Assembly (NCBI GenBank): GCA_030836965.1
Contig: JAUPLM010000417.1
Span: 1 to 10,724 of the forward strand
DNA from: Thermodesulfobacteriota bacterium
GTDB taxonomy: Bacteria > Desulfobacterota > Desulfobacteria > Desulfobacterales > RPRI01
DNA length: 10,724 bases
Direction of reading: 5' to 3'
In this document: piece by piece, positions 2,665-10,724 of the stretch
Numbering within the stretch: position 1 is the stretch's first letter
How the letters are laid out: each line of letters opens with the position of its first letter
Translations under genes and position numbers: made by a program
Notes under the pieces: generated by a model
Told to the model about the DNA's origin: nothing
Database searches by the model: none
Seen by the model: only the letters and a program-made list of their open reading frames with translations

Positions 2665-5397
2665 CTAGTGAATATTTCTAAATATCGCAAGCATGTTCGG
2701 ATGATGAATTTCTTCAGTCTTATCCATGGTGTGGCACAGCTTGCAGTTTTTATTTGCTCCTATAGGGTAAGCGTTTTTCTGGTATTGTAGGGGCTGGAAA
2801 TTATCCCTGTTGTTTCCGAATATATTCGTTGCAGGATATTCCGCATGAGAAATTCCATGACATGCCGGACACATTATCCCGACTTCATCCGAACGCGAGC
2901 TGTAGAGTGATCTTTTATCCTTTGTCCAGACATTTGGCGGCGACTGATCCGTATCAGGAGGATTGAAACCGGTATGGCAATTCAAACAGTCGGGCTGGTT
3001 TACCCATGCTTTTCTCGGTTCAATCTGTTTTACATTATCTACAGCTCTCGGCCTGAGATGTTTCATGAGCCTTTCCGCCTCACCTTTGCCCTCTTTTCTT
3101 TCAGAGACAAGGAGGCTTAAGGCATGATCCTCCATTTTTCCATGACAGTTTGTACAATCAAGGCCTATTCTGCTGTGAATGCCCCTGTAGCTTTTTGTGA
3201 ATCCGGATGACGGATGACAGTTGCTGCACGGATCAGGATCATCAGCAGCGATATAATTTGCATGGAAACCATGTATGGCAGCTGAAAGATTTAAATGTTT
3301 TGATTTTTCCCCGGTCCCCGTCTGCTCTCCCGCATGGCAGTTCGAACACATCCTGGGATTACCTTTTCCAGACAGGGATTCAAGATTGGTACGGTTTAAC
3401 CGGTCATGGGTCTTTAAAATATCAAGCGATGTTTCGTCAGAAAGACCGGTTATGTTCTTTATACCCCAGTTTCCGCCATGGCAGTTCCGGCAACCCATTT
3501 CCGTAGATACCGGCACAGATACTCCTGTTGAGCAAAGCAGCTCTCCCGTTCCGGTATCCCTTGCTTCGACATAAACAACCGGAAACGGCACAAAGGAGCC
3601 ATCATCCCTGTAAGGTATGACCGGAAGATCGACAGCTGAAAAAGCCATAAGACTTTCATCAAAAACCATGTCGCCGGTTGTTTTCCTGCCGGAAAATCCT
3701 TCATTATCATTTATACGTCGGCCATAAAAAGATTTGGAATATTGCCAGAAATCGGAATTTGAGGAGGGTGTATTGAACCCTTCTTCGATCCGGTAAGAGA
3801 TGCGCAGGTTTCCTGTAACAATTTCAGGTGTTTTTCCCCTCTTAATGAGTTGGGCATAGATTGTATTTCCTGGCTGTGAAATACTGAAAAACTGGTTGTT
3901 GTCGGATATGAAATGCATTCCTTTCCCGCTCCATGCAAGCAGAACATATTTATTTTTCGCGGGATCGAAGAGGGGGATTTTGGGTTCTGTGGGGGTGATG
4001 GAATATTCTGAACGCAGTTCTTCTTTCTTGCCGTTAAGCTCGTTTACCAAATACGCGGCAAGAGCCTTTTTTTCTGCATTGGTTCCGGGAAAAGGCGGCA
4101 TAAATTCATTTACTTTACCCATGCCGTTTAACATAGACTCCATGCCGTATTGCGAATATTTTCCTGTCGCAGCCTTGATATCATTCATAAAACCGCCTGC
4201 GGAATGACAGGAAATGCACATGAGCCTGAATATTTCACGCCCGGACCGGACCTGGTTTTGTTCATCGATCTTTTTAGTGAGAACCCACCTCGAAGTTTTT
4301 AATATCCCGTTATTGATCATGAAATCCATATCTTTTTCGGAAACGGAATTGGAATAAATACTCCCGTATATTATGTAAGGCCTCCTGCCCGCCTCCCTGA
4401 TCCATTCAAAAGAACCTATGTATAAAATACCCATGACAAAAAGAGATATGGTTACCCCTTTTTTAACTGAATCGGACATCCGGATTGACATAAATATTCC
4501 AGAAATAAAAATAAGCGGGGATATAATAAGGAATATTTTGACAAGAGGCGGTATTTCCGGTGAGAGTTTTAAAATCATCAGTTTTTGAGGTCCGGGAAGT
4601 GAGGAAACATACCACCATGCCGAAGCAAGCAAAAACAGAAACGGAATAAGGAGCCACCTTGCACAGTATTTTTCCAGGGAATTTCTCAAGGTTTTTTCTT
4701 TTACGACAGAGGAAGTTATAAATCCGAAAAGCCCCGCAAGCATGAAAGCCATGAATGTTCTGAAAAAAAGAGACGGCCAGAAAGAGGGATTGAAAAAACC
4801 GTCCCAGAAGTTTCCGCTTGAAAGCCACTTTCCGGGAGTCAGCATAAAAGAAATTATGCCGTTTATTACAAAAAGAGAGAGCCAGCCGAAACCAAAATAG
4901 AGCCAGCCGATTCTAAGATGATCCTGTTTGTTCATTTTTCCGAAGGTGTAAAAATAGATAAAAAGCGAGACTATCTCTACAAGGAAAAAAACCCATTCAG
5001 TTGCCCAGCCGAAAACAAAATTATGCACGAGAATTGAAGTTGCGGCAGGATTCAATAAAGAGATTGCAAACCATATTCCGACACCTGTTATGGCTCCGAA
5101 AACCATTGTTACAAGAAGAAAGAATTTTGTATGCCTTCTCGTATATTCCAGAATATCGGCTGAATTTTCCCTGTATCCCTTCATTTCCGTAAGCACCAGG
5201 AAGAGGCCCCCTCCTACGGCAAAATGGGCTACGTAAACATGAATCACGGCAATAATGGCGATCAGGGTTCCGCCTCCAAAAAAACCGAGATCCCATACAG
5301 GATAATTTACGATATAGTTATCAAGCATTATTAAACCAAATCCAACAGCTCCGAAAAAGAGCTTTTTTATCACTACTCCCCTTGCCGGGGCGGGCAT
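2665..5397 (-). CDS. CydA-like (cytochrome bd superfamily) membrane subunit fused to an eight-CXXCH cytochrome c
   Basis: This is a 910-residue chimera. Residues about 30-370 form a multi-helix CydA-like core. His53 fits E. coli His19 (HVYVAHFAVGG, with Glu71 at the same +18 spacing), Glu134 and Glu141 fit the Glu99/Glu107 pair, and REAGRRPY (Glu335, Arg338) fits the EYGRQPW motif. The His186 position is Arg213 and no Q-loop is present. Residues about 382-455 form a monohaem class I cytochrome c (CISCH at 394-398, with Met433 in MPPFPG as likely sixth ligand). Residues about 470-635 lack haem motifs. Seven more CXXCH follow, with first Cys at 636, 684, 724, 748, 804, 843 and 885. The core is presumably in the inner membrane with the haems in the periplasm. 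The likely role is reduction of O2 (or a similar acceptor) with electrons from c-type cytochromes. The start is uncertain: ATG 5397 has a weak AGGG site, GTG 5373 follows AAGGGGAGTA, and ATG 5328 (MLDNYIVNYPVWD) matches where CydA usually begins. The longer forms add a KK-plus-hydrophobic signal anchor. Confidence 0.88.
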   Translation of the reverse strand: MPAPARGVVIKKLFFGAVGFGLIMLDNYIVNYPVWDLGFFGGGTLIAIIAVIHVYVAHFAVGGGLFLVLTEMKGYRENSADILEYTRRHTKFFLLVTMVFGAITGVGIWFAISLLNPAATSILVHNFVFGWATEWVFFLVEIVSLFIYFYTFGKMNKQDHLRIGWLYFGFGWLSLFVINGIISFMLTPGKWLSSGNFWDGFFNPSFWPSLFFRTFMAFMLAGLFGFITSSVVKEKTLRNSLEKYCARWLLIPFLFLLASAWWYVSSLPGPQKLMILKLSPEIPPLVKIFLIISPLIFISGIFMSIRMSDSVKKGVTISLFVMGILYIGSFEWIREAGRRPYIIYGSIYSNSVSEKDMDFMINNGILKTSRWVLTKKIDEQNQVRSGREIFRLMCISCHSAGGFMNDIKAATGKYSQYGMESMLNGMGKVNEFMPPFPGTNAEKKALAAYLVNELNGKKEELRSEYSITPTEPKIPLFDPAKNKYVLLAWSGKGMHFISDNNQFFSISQPGNTIYAQLIKRGKTPEIVTGNLRISYRIEEGFNTPSSNSDFWQYSKSFYGRRINDNEGFSGRKTTGDMVFDESLMAFSAVDLPVIPYRDDGSFVPFPVVYVEARDTGTGELLCSTGVSVPVSTEMGCRNCHGGNWGIKNITGLSDETSLDILKTHDRLNRTNLESLSGKGNPRMCSNCHAGEQTGTGEKSKHLNLSAAIHGFHANYIAADDPDPCSNCHPSSGFTKSYRGIHSRIGLDCTNCHGKMEDHALSLLVSERKEGKGEAERLMKHLRPRAVDNVKQIEPRKAWVNQPDCLNCHTGFNPPDTDQSPPNVWTKDKRSLYSSRSDEVGIMCPACHGISHAEYPATNIFGNNRDNFQPLQYQKNAYPIGANKNCKLCHTMDKTEEIHHPNMLAIFRNIH

Positions 5398-5533: not shown

Positions 5534-6601
5534 TTATGTTTTTATCGAATGAACGCATTTTATCATATAAATTACAGCTGCAATCCCGATTATCAGGGAA
5601 GCAAAGAACACTATCATAGGTGAATACTGGTAAATAACTTTCAGTTTTTCTATGGAAAAATAAGGTTTGAGAAAGGCTGTCCTGACCATATCCCTCATTA
5701 TTACCATGAAAAACACGGTGACTAACACTGAAAATGCTGCTGGCCGGACCTTGTTTTTATAACCGAATATCAGGGAAAGGCCGGCAGCAATCAAACCTGC
5801 CAGAAAGACCATTGTGCCTGTAGTGTCTTTTCCCATGAAAAGAAGCATAATATCTTTCGGCAGGCTTATGAAAAACCATATTCCTGCTAAAACCTGAAAA
5901 AGCGTGGCATAGAAAAATATTTTCATCCCGGTTTTTACATTCAAATCAGCATCTGCCGAACCGCTTTTCTTTTTTTTCTGCCATGTTATCGCTATAAACA
6001 GGCCGCTTATTGCAACAGACGCTGTTACAAAGTGAATAAAACGGGGAAGCAGTGTCGGCTCAGACAGGTTTAATACGGTTCCGGAGGGTCTATCAAAATA
6101 CTGTGTCCATGAAGCGGGGAAGAGCATCATGGTCATGTTGTTCGTATAGAAAAAAGCTGTGATTGTAAGAAGCAGAACAGTCAGGCCGATAAAATACACA
6201 CGGGCGAATGCGAGTTCCTCGAATTTGAATTTGTAAATATATGCGCTGTAATATGCAATAATAAGAATAAAAATTACGGAGATCCAGAAAACCGCCATCA
6301 ATATGGAACTCGTATAAAAAAAGTTTCCGTAAAGAACCTGCAGAAACAGCAGGGGTGCCACCCCGAAGTTAATGGTAAAAGCTATTACAAAGGTTGTTTT
6401 TTCGGATATCTCTTTTTGGAGCGAAATCGTGCTGCGTTCCGGGAACCTGTTCAATCCGCTGAAAAAAGCTATGATCGCTGACCCGAGCATTATATTCATT
6501 AAGAGAATGTGGGCCATGAAGGTTATAATCAGCAGTACTTTGAACCATACCCAGTGAACAGGGATAGTATCCGGTGACGGGATAAGCGCCGCTATGTCCA
6601 T
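5534..6601 (-). CDS. Small CydA-like membrane subunit (CydA-prime type) of the bd-superfamily complex
   Basis: This 355-residue, very hydrophobic protein has about eight or nine membrane helices. Helix 1 contains AHILLMNIMLG, whose His31 aligns with CydA His19 at the same spacing to the following Gly. The segment LPRFIHFVTASVAISG places His190 at the CydA His186 position. A late RDMVRTAFLKPYF resembles the GRQPW region, with Asp304 and Arg307. Counterparts of the CydA Glu99/Glu107 pair are absent. This makes it a CydA paralogue rather than a typical CydB. It starts 13 bp after the DVU0298-family gene, with an AAGG site in that gap, and precedes the 910-residue CydA-like gene, so the two probably form one complex. 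Homology to CydA was judged by eye from motif spacing, so an unrelated partner subunit remains possible. Confidence 0.72.
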   Translation of the reverse strand: MDIAALIPSPDTIPVHWVWFKVLLIITFMAHILLMNIMLGSAIIAFFSGLNRFPERSTISLQKEISEKTTFVIAFTINFGVAPLLFLQVLYGNFFYTSSILMAVFWISVIFILIIAYYSAYIYKFKFEELAFARVYFIGLTVLLLTITAFFYTNNMTMMLFPASWTQYFDRPSGTVLNLSEPTLLPRFIHFVTASVAISGLFIAITWQKKKKSGSADADLNVKTGMKIFFYATLFQVLAGIWFFISLPKDIMLLFMGKDTTGTMVFLAGLIAAGLSLIFGYKNKVRPAAFSVLVTVFFMVIMRDMVRTAFLKPYFSIEKLKVIYQYSPMIVFFASLIIGIAAVIYMIKCVHSIKT

Positions 6602-6614
6602 ATGATAAAAACCT

Positions 6615-7319
6615 TCATTGTGGTACCCGGCTCATTTTTTCGCTAAGTATTTCATTTACAATATTTTTTATCATGAACCTGTTTATGATACCATCAGAAT
6701 AAATCTTTACTACCGAATCATCATTTTTTAGAGGCAATAAAAAATATCGTGCTTTTACGGGATCTATCGCTCCGAGCGCCCATGCTGAAAGGCCGCGAAG
6801 CATCACATCGCCGGACTCAAGGAAGGAAATAAGGAGAACGAAGGAATCCCTCACAAGATGAGGCTTTGCTATCGCTATTCTTCCTATTCCCCAGATAACT
6901 CCCTGCTGAAGAACTTCGTTTTCCAGATAGTTTCCGTCTATATTTATATAAGATATAAGGATGCGGTTGTATTCTTCACCCAGCCGCATATTTCTTGCAA
7001 TAATCTCTCCCATTGCTTCGGGAGAGCCCCATCCGATTCCACCCGATTCGTCGTTTAAATTCCACATGAGGCGGCGCATGACGACACGCGCGGATTCAAT
7101 ATCAGCATCAGCAAGAGAAGAAACAACATCTCCCATTGCTGTGACGGCACGCCATTTAATCAGTTCATCTATATTATACAGACATGAAAAAAGATGATTT
7201 ACAACCTGCCTTCCTGGAAACCGCCGGATTTCGGAAAGCCGTTCATGAAAATCTTTTCCGGAGAGAATTTCAAAGATCTTGCTTTTTAATCTCCTTCCTC
7301 CGATTCTGTCGGTATCCAT
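6615..7319 (-). CDS. DVU0298-family HEAT/armadillo-like protein
   Basis: This 234-residue soluble protein has no signal peptide or membrane helix. It is built of helical repeats with HEAT character (KWRAVTAMGDVVSSL at about 55-69, LQQGVIWGIGRIA at 137-149, LRGLSAWALGAI at 174-185). The block RRLMWNLNDESGGIGWGSPE at about 82-101 is the hallmark I associate with the DVU0298 family of sulfate-reducing and related bacteria. Its function is not known to me; HEAT repeats usually serve as protein-binding scaffolds. It is the first gene of the cluster encoding the CydA-like pair, and the 13-bp gap to the next gene suggests a link with assembly or regulation of that complex. The predicted ATG has no Shine-Dalgarno site and lies 28 bp from a MITE-like element. 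A strong SD-like sequence sits inside codons 7-10, so the true start is uncertain. Confidence 0.82.
   Translation of the reverse strand: MDTDRIGGRRLKSKIFEILSGKDFHERLSEIRRFPGRQVVNHLFSCLYNIDELIKWRAVTAMGDVVSSLADADIESARVVMRRLMWNLNDESGGIGWGSPEAMGEIIARNMRLGEEYNRILISYINIDGNYLENEVLQQGVIWGIGRIAIAKPHLVRDSFVLLISFLESGDVMLRGLSAWALGAIDPVKARYFLLPLKNDDSVVKIYSDGIINRFMIKNIVNEILSEKMSRVPQ
7291..7301 (-). promoter_or_regulatory. Strong SD-like sequence inside the start of the DVU0298-family gene
   Basis: The minus strand reads GGAGGAAGGAG followed by ATTAAAAAGCAAGATC. This is the best ribosome-binding sequence in the neighbourhood, but no ATG, GTG or TTG follows in frame at usable distance; only TTA, ATC or ATT codons do. 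It may be a relic of a lost start, support a non-standard start, or be chance purines in Gly-Gly-Arg-Arg codons. Confidence 0.35.
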
Positions 7320-7347: not shown

Positions 7348-7563
7348 GGCAGGGGTAATGGGCTATGGCATTCCGCAAGAATGCGATTCAAACTTAGCCA
7401 ACGGCAGCAAATTCACTCCCATGAAATCCGGGCAGCCCCAGTGGATATACACCCACGAAGCCATGATTTTGTCTTTGCCTGTCTCTCTTTGTTGACAATC
7501 AGGGGGTGTTGATATGATTCCTTAAAAATCTCTTACGGAATGCCATAGCCCATTACCCCTGCC
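7348..7563. mobile_element. MITE-like or internally deleted IS element with perfect 28-bp terminal inverted repeats
   Basis: The left arm (7348-7375) begins GGCAGGGGTAATGGGC and ends TATGGCATTCCG. The right arm (7536-7563) is its exact reverse complement. Allowing one mismatch the arms extend inward to 33 bp (to 7380 and from 7531). The interior of about 150-160 bases holds no complete gene and no transposase that I recognise. I see no clear target-site duplication just outside the arms. The element fills most of the gap between the ferredoxin gene and the DVU0298-family gene. The overall size and arm length fit a miniature inverted-repeat element. A large stem-loop with a regulatory or termination role is an alternative. 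Confidence 0.65.
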
Positions 7564-7576
7564 AAACTTAATCGGA

Positions 7577-7768
7577 TTACTTTCCATCCCAGGAAATGCA
7601 ATCAGAAGGACAGTTCTTAATAGCTTCATCAACCTCTTTTTCAGGATAGGCCGGGAGCTCGGTAATTTCAATATATCCGGCGCTGCTCAATTTGAAAACA
7701 GAGGGAGCAACCTCTATGCAGATGCCGCAAAGTATGCAGTCGCCAAGTTCAACAACCGGTGTTTTCAT
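7577..7768 (-). CDS. Small single-cluster [4Fe-4S] ferredoxin
   Basis: This 63-residue cytoplasmic electron carrier has the motif CILCGIC (Cys11, Cys14, Cys17), with the fourth ligand in NCPSDC (Cys53 before Pro54). Cys57 is a spare cysteine. The length, acidic character and VFKLSSAGYIEI middle are typical of monocluster bacterial ferredoxins. It begins 9 bp after the flavodiiron gene stop, with an AGGA site overlapping that gene's end, so the two are almost certainly cotranscribed. It may feed electrons to, or take them from, the redox partners of the flavodiiron protein or the FMN oxidoreductase in this operon. No clear rho-independent terminator follows; the inverted-repeat element begins 13 bp downstream of its stop. 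Confidence 0.9.
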   Translation of the reverse strand: MKTPVVELGDCILCGICIEVAPSVFKLSSAGYIEITELPAYPEKEVDEAIKNCPSDCISWDGK

Positions 7769-7777
7769 TCGCTGTTT

Positions 7778-8962
7778 TTATCCTGTTATTGCTTTTCCCG
7801 TCTTTTTTCCCAGCTCGATGCAGGCTTCCATGGATTGATCATCCGGCACATATTGAACTTTTACACCCGGATCAATGATTTCGATACCCATAGATTCCAG
7901 TTCGGTTTTAATAAGATTCACCGATTCTCCGCTCCATCCGTACGAGCCGAAGGCAGCCCCGATTTTATTTTTCGGCTTAAGGCCTTTCATATATGTCAGA
8001 AAATCGCTGACAGTCGGAAACAGGCCGTTATTCAATGTGGGAGAACCGACTATGATCGCCTTTGCATCCAAAACCTCGGTCATTATATCGCTGCGGTTCC
8101 ATTTTCTAAGATGCATCGGTTTTGCTTCTACTCCATGCTCACTCAGGCCTGCAACAATCGCTTCAGCCATCTTTTCGGTGCTGTGCCACATGGTATCATA
8201 TATGACTACGGCCTTATTCTTTGCCTCCTGTCTGCTCCAATTAATATAAGCATTGATTATTTTTCCGGGATCTTTGCGCCATAATACACCGTGATCGGGG
8301 CATATCATATTAAATTCGAGTTTGAGGTTAGTTACCTGTTCAACCAGTTTTAAAATAAGCGGCGAATAGAGCAGAAGAATGTTTGCAAAATATTTTTTTG
8401 CGTGGGGCATTACGGCTTCACCTATCATGTCATCGAACTTTTCCTGTCCTGCATAATGCTGGCCGAAAGCGTCGCTTGAAAAAAGAATTTTGTCTTCTTT
8501 AAGATAGGAGAACATGCTGTCCGGCCAGTGAAGCATTCTTGTTTCGAGAAAAGTTATAGTTCTGCTTCCAAGACTAAGCTCTTCGCCGTTTTCAACCGGG
8601 TGATAATTCCATTTCTGCCTGAAATGGCGGGAAAGATTTTTTTGGCCCATTTTCGAACAGAAGAGAGGCTTCTCTTCACCGATTTTGTGCATTACACGGG
8701 GCAGGCCGCCGGAATGGTCCATTTCTGTATGATTGCTGACGACATAGTCGATTTTTTTGGGATCTATTATTTTCGATATATTGTCGATGAGCTGATCGGC
8801 AAAATCGGCTTTAACAGTGTCTATCAGGACTGTTTTTTTGTCCAGAATCAGAAAAGCATTGTAGCTTGTTCCATGGTCGGTTGTATATCCATGAAAGTCT
8901 CTGATGTTCCAGTCATTGACTCCGACATCATAAATGTCTTTTGCTATCTTTACCGGTTTCAT
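7778..8962 (-). CDS. fprA: Flavodiiron protein (FprA/Roo-type O2 or NO reductase)
   Basis: This 394-residue class A flavodiiron protein has a metallo-beta-lactamase-like diiron domain followed by a flavodoxin domain. The diiron ligands are visible: HTEMDH gives His78, Glu80 and Asp82, then His145 (LHWPD), Asp164 (SSDAF) and His224 (PDHG). The flavodoxin part from about residue 250 carries FMN-binding stretches YDTMWHSTEKMA (255-266), SPTLNNG (307-313) and FGSYGWSGE (338-346). Family members reduce O2 to water and/or NO to N2O in the cytoplasm of anaerobes, usually with rubredoxin as donor. A rubredoxin gene lies 121 bp upstream on the same strand. The start has a good AGGAAAGAG site. Sequence alone does not tell whether O2 or NO is the preferred substrate. 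Confidence 0.95.
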   Translation of the reverse strand: MKPVKIAKDIYDVGVNDWNIRDFHGYTTDHGTSYNAFLILDKKTVLIDTVKADFADQLIDNISKIIDPKKIDYVVSNHTEMDHSGGLPRVMHKIGEEKPLFCSKMGQKNLSRHFRQKWNYHPVENGEELSLGSRTITFLETRMLHWPDSMFSYLKEDKILFSSDAFGQHYAGQEKFDDMIGEAVMPHAKKYFANILLLYSPLILKLVEQVTNLKLEFNMICPDHGVLWRKDPGKIINAYINWSRQEAKNKAVVIYDTMWHSTEKMAEAIVAGLSEHGVEAKPMHLRKWNRSDIMTEVLDAKAIIVGSPTLNNGLFPTVSDFLTYMKGLKPKNKIGAAFGSYGWSGESVNLIKTELESMGIEIIDPGVKVQYVPDDQSMEACIELGKKTGKAITG

Positions 8963-9083: not shown

Positions 9084-9242
9084 TTATTCTTTTTCAAAAT
9101 CATCTTTTGGAGCACCGCAAACCGGGCATTCCCAAGTATCCGGAAGGTCTTCAAATTTTGTGCCCGGATCTATACCGTTATCGGGGTCGCCTGCTGCGGG
9201 ATCATAAACGTATCCGCATACCTTACATATGTACCTGTCCAT
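9084..9242 (-). CDS. rub: Rubredoxin (52 residues)
   Basis: This short gene encodes a complete rubredoxin, [20 protein letters not shown] at the N-terminus and [17 protein letters not shown] at the C-terminus. The Fe(Cys)4 ligands are Cys6, Cys9, Cys39 and Cys42, with the usual aromatic residues (Tyr4, Tyr11, Tyr13, Trp37). A perfect AAGGAGG (9248-9254) lies five bases before the ATG at 9242. A second ATG directly upstream (9245) would add one Met but leaves only two bases of spacing. As an electron carrier it most probably serves the flavodiiron protein encoded next. It lies 30 bp after the FMN reductase-ArsC fusion gene. Confidence 0.96.
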
Positions 9243-9272
9243 CATAACCTCCTTGTTTTAACTTTTTTAAGT

Positions 9273-10238
9273 TTAGAGTTTATCTCTCAGTTCAATTATT
9301 TTATTTTCTATATCATCGCGAACGTTTCTCATGAATTCGATTGATTTACCGGCAGGATCAGGAAGATCCCATGTTTCGGTTCCGGCTCCCGGCACAAATG
9401 GGCATTCTTCCCCGCAACCCATGGTTATAATAATATCAGGTTTTTCTTTTGAAATTGCCTGCTCTATTGATTTGGGTTTGCGAAAGCCCATATCTATCCC
9501 TTTTTCCTGCATAACTTCAACCATAAGCGGGTTTATTGCATCGGCAGGAGCGCTCCCGCCGTTTAAAGCATCTATTTTGTCTCCCGCAATATATCGGGCG
9601 AACGCGCTTGCAATCTGGCTTCTGCATGCGTTTTCCCTGCAGGCAAACAGGATTTTTTTTCTTCCGATATAGGGCTTTAATAGATTACCTGCGGCTTCCC
9701 TGATATCTTCTCCAACAGAAGAATGCTTTTCCATGTCGCCGCGAGTTTCTATCTTCCTGTATGTCAAACTTCCTTCGAAACTGGCGCCGACAGCATCAAA
9801 AAAATATTTGGCGGTAAGCTTCATGCCTTCAAACAGATTTGCTCCTTTTGTTGCTCCAAGGGCAAGAAGAAAACCACGTCTGTTTTTACGGCCGGGATCA
9901 GTAAGATTCAGCCTGTATTTGCGTGCCCATAATGTCTGGCACCGGTCTATCAGAGCCTTTGTCTGTGCCGGAGCATTGTAAAAAAAAATGGGGGTTGCAA
10001 GAACAACGATATCCGCCTCGCGAAAAAGAGGATAAATTTCATTCATATCGTCGTCTATGGGACAGGTCCCTTTCTTTTCGCACACGCTGTATTCCATGCA
10101 GGGAATGATATTTTTTTTGGCAATCTCAATTATATCTGTACTGACACCTGCTTTTTCAACTTCGTTCATGAAAGATGAAAGAAGAAACTCTGTATTTCCT
10201 TTTTTTCTGGGACTACCCATCAGACCGAGCACCAGCAT
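9273..10238 (-). CDS. Flavodoxin-fold NAD(P)H:FMN oxidoreductase fused to LMW-phosphatase/ArsC-type arsenate reductase domain
   Basis: This 321-residue, two-domain cytoplasmic protein is an unusual fusion. Residues 1 to about 185 match the NADPH-dependent FMN reductase/iron-sulfur flavoprotein family: GSPRKKGNTEFLL (8-20) binds FMN phosphate and TPIFFYNAPAQTKALIDRC (82-100) is the second hallmark. The cysteine region reads CMEYSVCEKKGTC (Cys47, Cys53, Cys59), so one position of the classic four-cysteine cluster is Tyr50. Residues about 193-321 form a low-molecular-weight phosphatase fold with the CX5R loop CRENACRS (Cys200, Arg206). The MGCGEECP pair (Cys275, Cys279) and DLPDP (Asp294 as likely general acid) are as in thiol-relay arsenate reductases. 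A flavin domain could regenerate the relay, but this is inference. It has a GGGAG site and starts 12 bp after the c7-type cytochrome gene. Confidence 0.9.
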   Translation of the reverse strand: MLVLGLMGSPRKKGNTEFLLSSFMNEVEKAGVSTDIIEIAKKNIIPCMEYSVCEKKGTCPIDDDMNEIYPLFREADIVVLATPIFFYNAPAQTKALIDRCQTLWARKYRLNLTDPGRKNRRGFLLALGATKGANLFEGMKLTAKYFFDAVGASFEGSLTYRKIETRGDMEKHSSVGEDIREAAGNLLKPYIGRKKILFACRENACRSQIASAFARYIAGDKIDALNGGSAPADAINPLMVEVMQEKGIDMGFRKPKSIEQAISKEKPDIIITMGCGEECPFVPGAGTETWDLPDPAGKSIEFMRNVRDDIENKIIELRDKL

Positions 10239-10250
10239 TATTAAATCTCC

Positions 10251-10589
10251 CTATTTTACATGACAGCTCTTGCAGGTTACAGGGCCGGTTTTTAATCCGG
10301 CATTTGTTTTTTCACGGTGGCACTTCTGGCAGTTGTTCATGATTTTTTTCTTTTCCAGTTTCCCCTCATCTTTAAGCTTCTGGATAATTCCTGCCGTCTG
10401 GGGAAAAAGGCTGTGGCACAGGTTGCAGTCGACGAGAACTTTTTGATGGAGATGATGCTTCATCGGAACATTTCCTGTTGTCCCGCCGGGAATAATAATC
10501 TCCTTTGCTCCCTTATTCTGCGCCCATAAAAGAGTTGAAAAAAGAAGAACAGCTGCCGCAAACAGGATCAAAGTCGCTGTTTTGTGCAT
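10251..10589 (-). CDS. Periplasmic triheme cytochrome c (c7/class III type)
   Basis: From the start at 10589 this is a 112-residue preprotein. A signal peptide (MHKTATLILFAAAVLLFSTLLWA) ends near Ala23-Gln24, leaving a mature protein of about 9-10 kDa. Three CXXCH motifs bind haem c: CNLCH (55-59), CQKCH (87-91) and CKSCH (106-110). His45, His46 and His48 in KHHLH and other histidines could be sixth ligands, as in bis-His c3/c7 cytochromes. It probably shuttles electrons in the periplasm. The adjacent bd-type genes and the multihaem CydA-like protein in the next operon are candidate partners, but none is proven. The longer frame from 10622 (11 extra residues) lacks a ribosome site, so 10589 is preferred. 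Confidence 0.9.
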   Translation of the reverse strand: MHKTATLILFAAAVLLFSTLLWAQNKGAKEIIIPGGTTGNVPMKHHLHQKVLVDCNLCHSLFPQTAGIIQKLKDEGKLEKKKIMNNCQKCHREKTNAGLKTGPVTCKSCHVK

Positions 10590-10596
10590 AATCAAA

Positions 10597-10601
10597 TCCT
10601 T
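10597..10601 (-). promoter_or_regulatory. Ribosome binding site choosing the cytochrome c7 start at 10589
   Basis: AAGGA on the minus strand lies seven bases before the ATG at 10589. The upstream in-frame ATGs at 10622 and 10619 have no comparable site, and they would put a polar segment before the signal peptide. Confidence 0.6.
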
Positions 10602-10650
10602 AAAATTAATATGCTTCATCATATAAAAGATCTTTTTAAGTCACTTTTCC

Positions 10651-10724
10651 TTAGAAAAGATTATATGTCCAGGCCTGGTATGAAATCACGGCCGCTATGA
10701 AAATAATAAATACAACCAGCATAA
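10651..10724 (-). CDS. C-terminal end of a membrane protein, probably cytochrome bd subunit II (CydB)
   Basis: Only the last codons lie in the window. The readable frame ends with a hydrophobic helix and ISYQAWTYNLF before a TAA at 10651-10653. A YQxWxYxxF ending after a last transmembrane helix is how I recognise the C-terminus of CydB-type subunits. Two other frames of the same strand meet stops early. The gene would enter from beyond the right edge and be followed 61 bp later by the c7-type cytochrome. The call rests on about two dozen residues and on the oxygen-defence context, so it is tentative. Confidence 0.55.
   Translation of the reverse strand, partial: MLVVFIIFIAAVISYQAWTYNLF

Follow-up and report, generated by a model that had tools for sequence, protein, structure and literature searches.

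The locus and its principal gene

The stretch of DNA analysed here, referred to as the window, comprises 10,724 nucleotides from a Thermodesulfobacteriota bacterium (assembly GCA_030836965.1, contig JAUPLM010000417.1). Its principal gene encodes a CydA-type core of the cytochrome bd superfamily joined in one polypeptide to a monohaem cytochrome c domain and a heptahaem tail, and beside it lies a gene for a 355-residue partner subunit. The two products probably constitute a CydAA'-type bd oxygen reductase (we put the probability at about 0.7), which would be fed by periplasmic c-type cytochromes instead of quinol.

The open reading frame (ORF) of the principal gene covers positions 2665 to 5397 of the minus strand, a strand that the original prediction had left unnamed, the plus strand of the same stretch being full of stops, and its 910 residues provide the numbering used throughout. 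The original prediction, made from the sequence alone, had taken all 910 residues as the protein. The frame is indeed there, but the protein is probably shorter: since nearly all of the listed relatives measure 844 to 891 residues and have their first residue level with Met24 or slightly beyond it, the true gene probably runs from 5328 to 2665 and encodes 887 residues, starting at Met24 (coordinate 5328). An AGGG stands a few bases ahead of Met1, as noted by eye, and the longer 910-residue start is a possibility.

All parts of the gene lie on the minus strand. The CydA-type core (residues 24–369; 4291 to 5328) contains eight predicted transmembrane helices. It is followed by the monohaem cytochrome c domain (residues 382–450; 4048 to 4254), in which the motif CXXCH occupies residues 394–398 and Met433 is the likely sixth ligand, and then by a haem-free stretch (about residues 454–636; 3490 to 4038) leading from the monohaem to the haems of the tail. 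The heptahaem tail (residues 636–889; 2665 to 3492) has CXXCH motifs at 636, 684, 724, 748, 804, 843 and 885, along with eight further conserved histidines (664, 709, 712, 741, 758, 851, 898 and 899) which are candidate sixth ligands. In the principal protein the Pfam models Cyt_bd_oxida_I, Cytochrome_CBB3, MtrC/MtrF II-IV and Cytochrome_C7 score 44.5 bits (cut-off 26.2), 28.5 (27), 36.5 (30) and 35.4 (24.8), the MtrC/MtrF match lying in the tail. The features that the original prediction had named, a CydA-like core with His53, Glu71, Glu134, Glu141 and the motif REAGRRPY (334–341), then eight CXXCH motifs in the same frame, were all located in the ORF. When its residues were shuffled 20,000 times, CXXCH occurred on average 0.01 times and never more than once, so the eight motifs are not due to chance.

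Distribution and integrity of the fusion

A phmmer search scored 7,997 candidates of 0.55 to 1.75 times the query length, of which 2,738 matched at E 1e-3 or better, their architectures being only partly seen. The 120 listed homologues, 743 to 913 residues long, carry exactly eight CXXCH motifs in one chain without exception. Eighty loci from other genomes (L numbers below) were kept out of at least 550 confirmed matches, many of the rows analysed being metagenome-assembled genomes (MAGs). A recognisable principal ORF is present at 77 of the 80, with eight motifs in 71 and fewer in six. Reduced counts occur at contig ends in L012 (three), L058 and L067 (six each) and L072 (five), and two Halodesulfovibrio MAGs, L056 and L063, have a full-length ORF with seven motifs instead of eight. 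That two genes might have been joined by a sequencing error, the caveat attached to the original prediction, is ruled out by the recurrence of eight-motif single chains in homologues and at other loci.

Among 297 Desulfobacterota genomes (G numbers), 64 gave a profile match: 13 to the long form, 39 to the core type or to fragments, and 12 to tail-like cytochromes only. Eleven of the 13 long forms match end to end, that of G213 with a TGA inside the match, and two do so in pieces within one frame. The gene is carried by 10 of 25 relatives of the window's genome. By taxonomy the 80 loci divide into Thermodesulfobacteriota (51), Myxococcota (8), Pseudomonadota (5, mostly titled Delta- or Proteobacteria), Bacteroidota (2), Ignavibacteriota (2) and one each from CSSED10-310, Eiseniibacteriota, Nitrospirota and Spirochaetota, eight having no assignment.

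The CydA-type core

The cores of 238 relatives (121 long, 105 short, six three-haem and six divergent) were aligned with E. coli CydA and 18 other canonical CydA sequences; 12 truncated rows were left out and one long row is cut at its N-terminus. His53, Glu134, Glu141, Glu335 and Arg338 of the window protein match His19, Glu99, Glu107, Glu445 and Arg448 of the E. coli protein, and these residues are kept wherever a row has a letter. A profile alignment with canonical CydA, which has a probability of 90.3 and spans 161 columns in just the first half of the core, pairs His53, Glu134, Glu141 and His160 with His19, Glu99, Glu107 and His126; as it stops there, the Glu445 match rests on the MAFFT alignments. 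In E. coli, Glu445 and Glu99 belong to haems b595 and d, and haem b558 is bound by His186 and Met393 (PMC6853902). Glu107 is described, in the title of a reference, as part of a cytoplasmic proton path.

No Q-loop had been evident to the original prediction, and this held across the aligned relatives: the columns of the Q-loop residues Lys252 and Glu257 are empty in all 238 rows, and the loop ahead of helix 7 is short in the window protein. Both b558 ligands are also gone from the window protein, His186 being present in none of the 238 relatives and Met393 in two. The haem c motif at 394–398 and Met433 are present in all 238. On these alignments the His/Met haem that is buried in the membrane and fed by quinol is absent, and predicted helix 8 is followed instead by a covalent haem c and a conserved methionine. 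The monohaem may do the work of haem b558.

Merging the overlapping hydropathy windows by eye predicts eight helices, against the nine of canonical CydA (PMC8951039), and places the positive loops inside and the C-terminus outside. Such a topology would put the c haems on the periplasmic side. Because the Q-loop is absent and the haem domains are predicted to be periplasmic, electrons would enter through the c haems rather than from quinol, and the built-in wire of the original prediction is to that extent upheld.

The partner subunit

The partner (5534 to 6601, minus strand; conserved His31, Arg187, His190, Met299 and Arg303) had been taken as an accompanying protein of 355 residues. Its profile scores 94.0 against the core of the principal protein and 0.2 against CydB, and the Pfam CydB model found no match in 48 partner homologues at E 5. 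On these comparisons the partner is a paralogue of CydA (CydA') rather than a recognisable CydB, a result which, with the loss of both b558 ligands, goes beyond the original prediction. Its identification as CydB was rejected on the absent Pfam matches and the profile scores.

Core and partner occur in 52 and 53 of the 297 Desulfobacterota genomes respectively, and both in 51. Forty-nine pairs lie no more than 700 bp apart; in G155 they are on two contigs and in G161 they are 1.8 Mb apart. The partner profile found the partner in 15 of 15 long-form genomes searched, and 68 of the 80 loci have a partner match, four of the other 12 (L015, L022, L057 and L065) beginning no more than about 230 bases from the edge of a contig.

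A one-haem CydA-c and CydA' pair is also found on plasmids of Thermus (L172, 4384–6950), Methylosinus (L173, 3983–6604) and Agrobacterium (L174, 4010–6573), where the genes are annotated as (c-type) cytochrome c and as hypothetical protein or cytochrome C. On these plasmids, three of four matches opened, the adjoining partner scores 133 to 177 bits, and canonical CydA and CydB no more than 4 bits.

Origin of the tail

In a core tree of 53 sequences a single branch of 43 (94/98, marginally below the threshold of the tool) unites all 34 long forms and has nine short forms nested within it; the three-haem forms fall outside, as does a group of short forms. Nine long forms, mostly from other phyla, make up a nested group (100/99). 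Three changes of the tail label are required on this tree, the simplest account being one gain and two losses, and well-supported branches force two. From this topology the tail looks to have been gained once and later lost. It is attractive to regard it as an exchangeable unit for electron input, carried by a core whose first haem c is never lost.

Stand-alone cytochromes of 479 to 607 residues (L107, L108, L109 and L118) match the tail by BLAST from residues 451–459 to 867–877 at about 30–42% identity, and all seven tail CXXCH motifs align with theirs. They have no CydA core and, by eye, secreted or lipoprotein-like starts, unlike the window protein. No NCBIfam model scored above its cut-off for these four cytochromes, and a sequence search for solved structures matching the tail returned none up to E 1.

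At L118 (238–5124) the cytochrome has ten CXXCH motifs, combines a tail-like part with a class III cytochrome part and lies beside a gene for the alpha subunit of a TAT-type formate dehydrogenase(-N), in a genome which also carries the long oxidase. It is chiefly because of this adjacency, at one locus, that the tail may be supposed to be fed by periplasmic dehydrogenases. At L110 (7933–9435) an octahaem cytochrome of the tetrathionate reductase family (TIGR04315, 533 bits) directly follows a three-haem CydA-c and CydA'.

Genomic surroundings

The window reads, from the 5' side of its genes and on the minus strand as far as the principal gene: the end of a canonical cydB (10651 to 10722, at the window edge, 23 codons to the first stop); a triheme cytochrome c7 of 123 residues (10251 to 10622), a possible electron donor; an FMN reductase-type domain fused to a low-molecular-weight phosphatase/ArsC-type domain (9273–10238), found at the six loci that keep the flavodiiron cluster; a rubredoxin (9084 to 9245), recognised by eye and by similarity to an ORF of G161; a flavodiiron protein (7778 to 8962), which provides a context of O2 or nitric oxide (NO) handling; a ferredoxin-like ORF (7577–7768); a HEAT-repeat protein of the NCBIfam DVU0298 family (6615–7319; 241.7 bits), which adjoins the partner in close relatives; the partner; the principal gene; and efflux genes. 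The cydB frame stops about 15 residues earlier than in relatives and is followed by CydB-like residues and another stop, indicating either a shortened CydB end or an assembly error. In the same genome a contig terminates with canonical cydA followed by the opening 96 residues of cydB, and it is probably the window's neighbour.

The congener G232 has cydA, cydB, c7, FMN reductase, flavodiiron, HEAT, partner and principal genes in one run, and G161 has the same cluster with the partner, with no c7 match and no principal gene. Apart from the partner, no neighbour recurs at more than 12 of the 80 loci.

Between the ferredoxin-like ORF and the HEAT gene lies a 216-bp repeat (7348–7563) whose inverted ends of 33 bp are 97% complementary. 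Full or partial matches to the repeat occur at 20 further places in the genome at 70–86% identity, arm-only matches being uncounted, and it looks like a small non-coding mobile repeat. Rfam models at their gathering scores found nothing in the window.

Proposed mechanism and alternatives

In the scheme we favour, the heptahaem tail would be reduced by periplasmic cytochromes (c7 or c3, or periplasmic formate dehydrogenase or hydrogenase acting through them) and would pass electrons to the monohaem, standing in for b558. From there they would reach the b595/d-type high-spin pair, at which O2 would be reduced to water with protons taken from the cytoplasm, the Glu107-type residue being kept. Direction, donor, substrate and energy yield are inferred throughout. 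The likely role is removal of O2, and possibly respiration, in anaerobes which also possess a quinol-fed bd oxidase.

A number of observations weigh against this scheme. All 12 long-form genomes of good quality that were tested also carry canonical cydA, as does the window's own genome, so that in these hosts the fusion is not the sole oxidase. Among 14 locus genomes, canonical CydA was not found in G304, G306 and G308, and COX1 was absent from G306 and G308 and present as a fragment in G304; these genomes may be incomplete, and in G304 the Pfam model also missed the long form. The hhalign comparison is weak as a negative test for the partner, canonical CydA and CydB, which share a fold, themselves scoring just 1.8. 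Trp441 of CydA corresponds by ungapped spacing to invariant Glu331 in the 238-row alignment, is shifted to Trp332 in another and differs again in the alignment of the superfamily tree. In the tail, three of the eight candidate histidine ligands (His741, His758 and His898/899) are not kept in the stand-alone relatives. Finally, the c7 and flavodiiron neighbours are conserved at just six to seven of the 80 loci, all in close relatives, and the formate dehydrogenase link is a single locus, so that the donor is guesswork.

A fuller account may be put forward tentatively for the kin of sulfate reducers: a quinone-independent, energy-conserving O2 respiration in which periplasmic oxidation of formate or H2 would reduce c3 or c7, these the heptahaem wire, and the wire a His/Met haem c replacing b558 in CydAA'. 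CydA' might carry a b haem at His190, protons would be cytoplasmic, and the input module (one, three or eight haems) would be swapped on an unchanged core. It is also possible, if short of probable, that the same chemistry scavenges O2 or NO without useful energy gain, as a detoxification oxidase of strict anaerobes. The company of the flavodiiron protein, the rubredoxin and, in close relatives, canonical cydAB points that way, as does G161, where the partner stays in that cluster with the principal gene 1.8 Mb off. However, the flavodiiron cluster is kept at so few loci, the two-gene module persists in other settings, including (in short form) a Thermus plasmid, and the residue matching Glu107 of the cytoplasmic proton path is retained.

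Entry of quinol through CydA', giving a quinol oxidase that also communicates with periplasmic cytochromes or a quinol:cytochrome c oxidoreductase working either way, is unlikely, as the principal chain has no Q-loop, the partner has no loop of that length, and the partner–CydA alignment has a probability of 16.7, making the histidine match weak. A terminal substrate other than O2, such as NO, peroxide or a sulfur or nitrogen compound, would suit hosts that are mostly kin of sulfate reducers and recalls the tetrathionate reductase-family gene beside the three-haem relative; it is nevertheless improbable, for characterised bd enzymes reduce O2 and the ligands of the O2 site are retained in every readable case. 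The 'reverse, outward-facing' option of the original prediction, in which electrons would leave the envelope through the tail, is very improbable despite the MtrC/MtrF II-IV score of the tail and the lipobox-like start (by eye) of the stand-alone relative L109: no inner-side entry was found, with quinol loop and b558 ligands both absent, the protein to which the tail is fused lies in the inner membrane, and among neighbours shared by at least five loci, where no dedicated search for outer-membrane conduits was made, c7 is the only multihaem cytochrome and a TolC-type efflux protein occurs in seven.

If the proposed scheme is correct, the periplasmic cytochrome pool of many sulfate-reducing and related bacteria supplies a route of O2 consumption that has gone unrecognised, with consequences for the survival or oxygen use of such 'anaerobes' at sediment surfaces. 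Database names imply a quinol oxidase (among the 120 listed homologues, 17 are 'cytochrome ubiquinol oxidase subunit I' at NCBI and six 'cytochrome bd-type quinol oxidase subunit 1' at JGI, most others being unnamed), yet the quinol site and b558 ligands are missing. The family would also allow a natural comparison of a single bd core with different, exchangeable electron inputs, and the short relative on the Thermus thermophilus plasmid makes the core testable in a tractable genus.

Comparison with known systems

The original prediction pointed to placement among the families of the bd superfamily. A tree of the four-helix core (36 rows and 193 columns, bootstrap not fully settled) was built from rows of our own rather than published references, including six canonical chains and twelve CydA-like chains selected from Nitrospirota, the phylum to which L068 belongs. 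It resolves a canonical group (100/100), a Nitrospira-type group (86/80) and a haem-c fused group of 18 rows (99/97) which includes the window protein. The OR-C family is reportedly defined by Murali, Gennis and Hemp (2021), the label being said to denote a c-type haem in the CydA chain. Citing papers name three bd families, qOR, OR-C and OR-N, and by the match of our three groups to this scheme the window protein is probably a member of OR-C. It shares with that family a CydA core without a quinol site and a c-type haem motif in the CydA chain, but has eight haems in one chain, seven of them in a tail homologous to stand-alone cytochromes. The paper defining OR-C may already describe the eight-haem fusion. 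No such description was found in the literature searched, outside which key papers lay, and absence from print is not claimed.

Two papers describe a CydA homologue without a complete bd oxidase (PMC10030654, PMC12093952). A published CydA homologue with a periplasmic cytochrome c domain is likewise proposed to reduce O2 with periplasmic electrons; set beside the window protein by description only, it has no heptahaem tail or CydA' partner mentioned in the accessible text.

The OR-N CydAA' of Nitrospira and Nitrospina also has no quinol loop and two CydA paralogues, and is thought to use cytochrome c (PMC10839748, PMC12342949, PMC3578206); in Nitrospina extra helices take the place of the Q-loop. 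Unlike the window protein, the 12 Nitrospirota CydA-like chains chosen all lack CXXCH; they retain His186, are encoded close to separate cytochrome genes and branch as a group of their own. Membership of OR-N was ruled out by the fused haem c, the helix topology and the separate tree group. At two Nitrospirota loci, L162 (1009–4728) and L163 (462–4172), a separate monohaem cytochrome accompanies two adjacent CydA-like chains, perhaps an unfused counterpart of the module.

MtrC and MtrF are ten-haem outer-membrane lipoproteins. Only their II/IV profile matches the tail, and the window protein differs from them as a membrane-helix fusion with eight CXXCH motifs. With canonical CydAB (E. coli cydAB, L083; the window's own genome, C75) it has the core profile and active-site residues in common, but it lacks the Q-loop, His186 and Met393, and its partner is CydA' and not a recognisable CydB.

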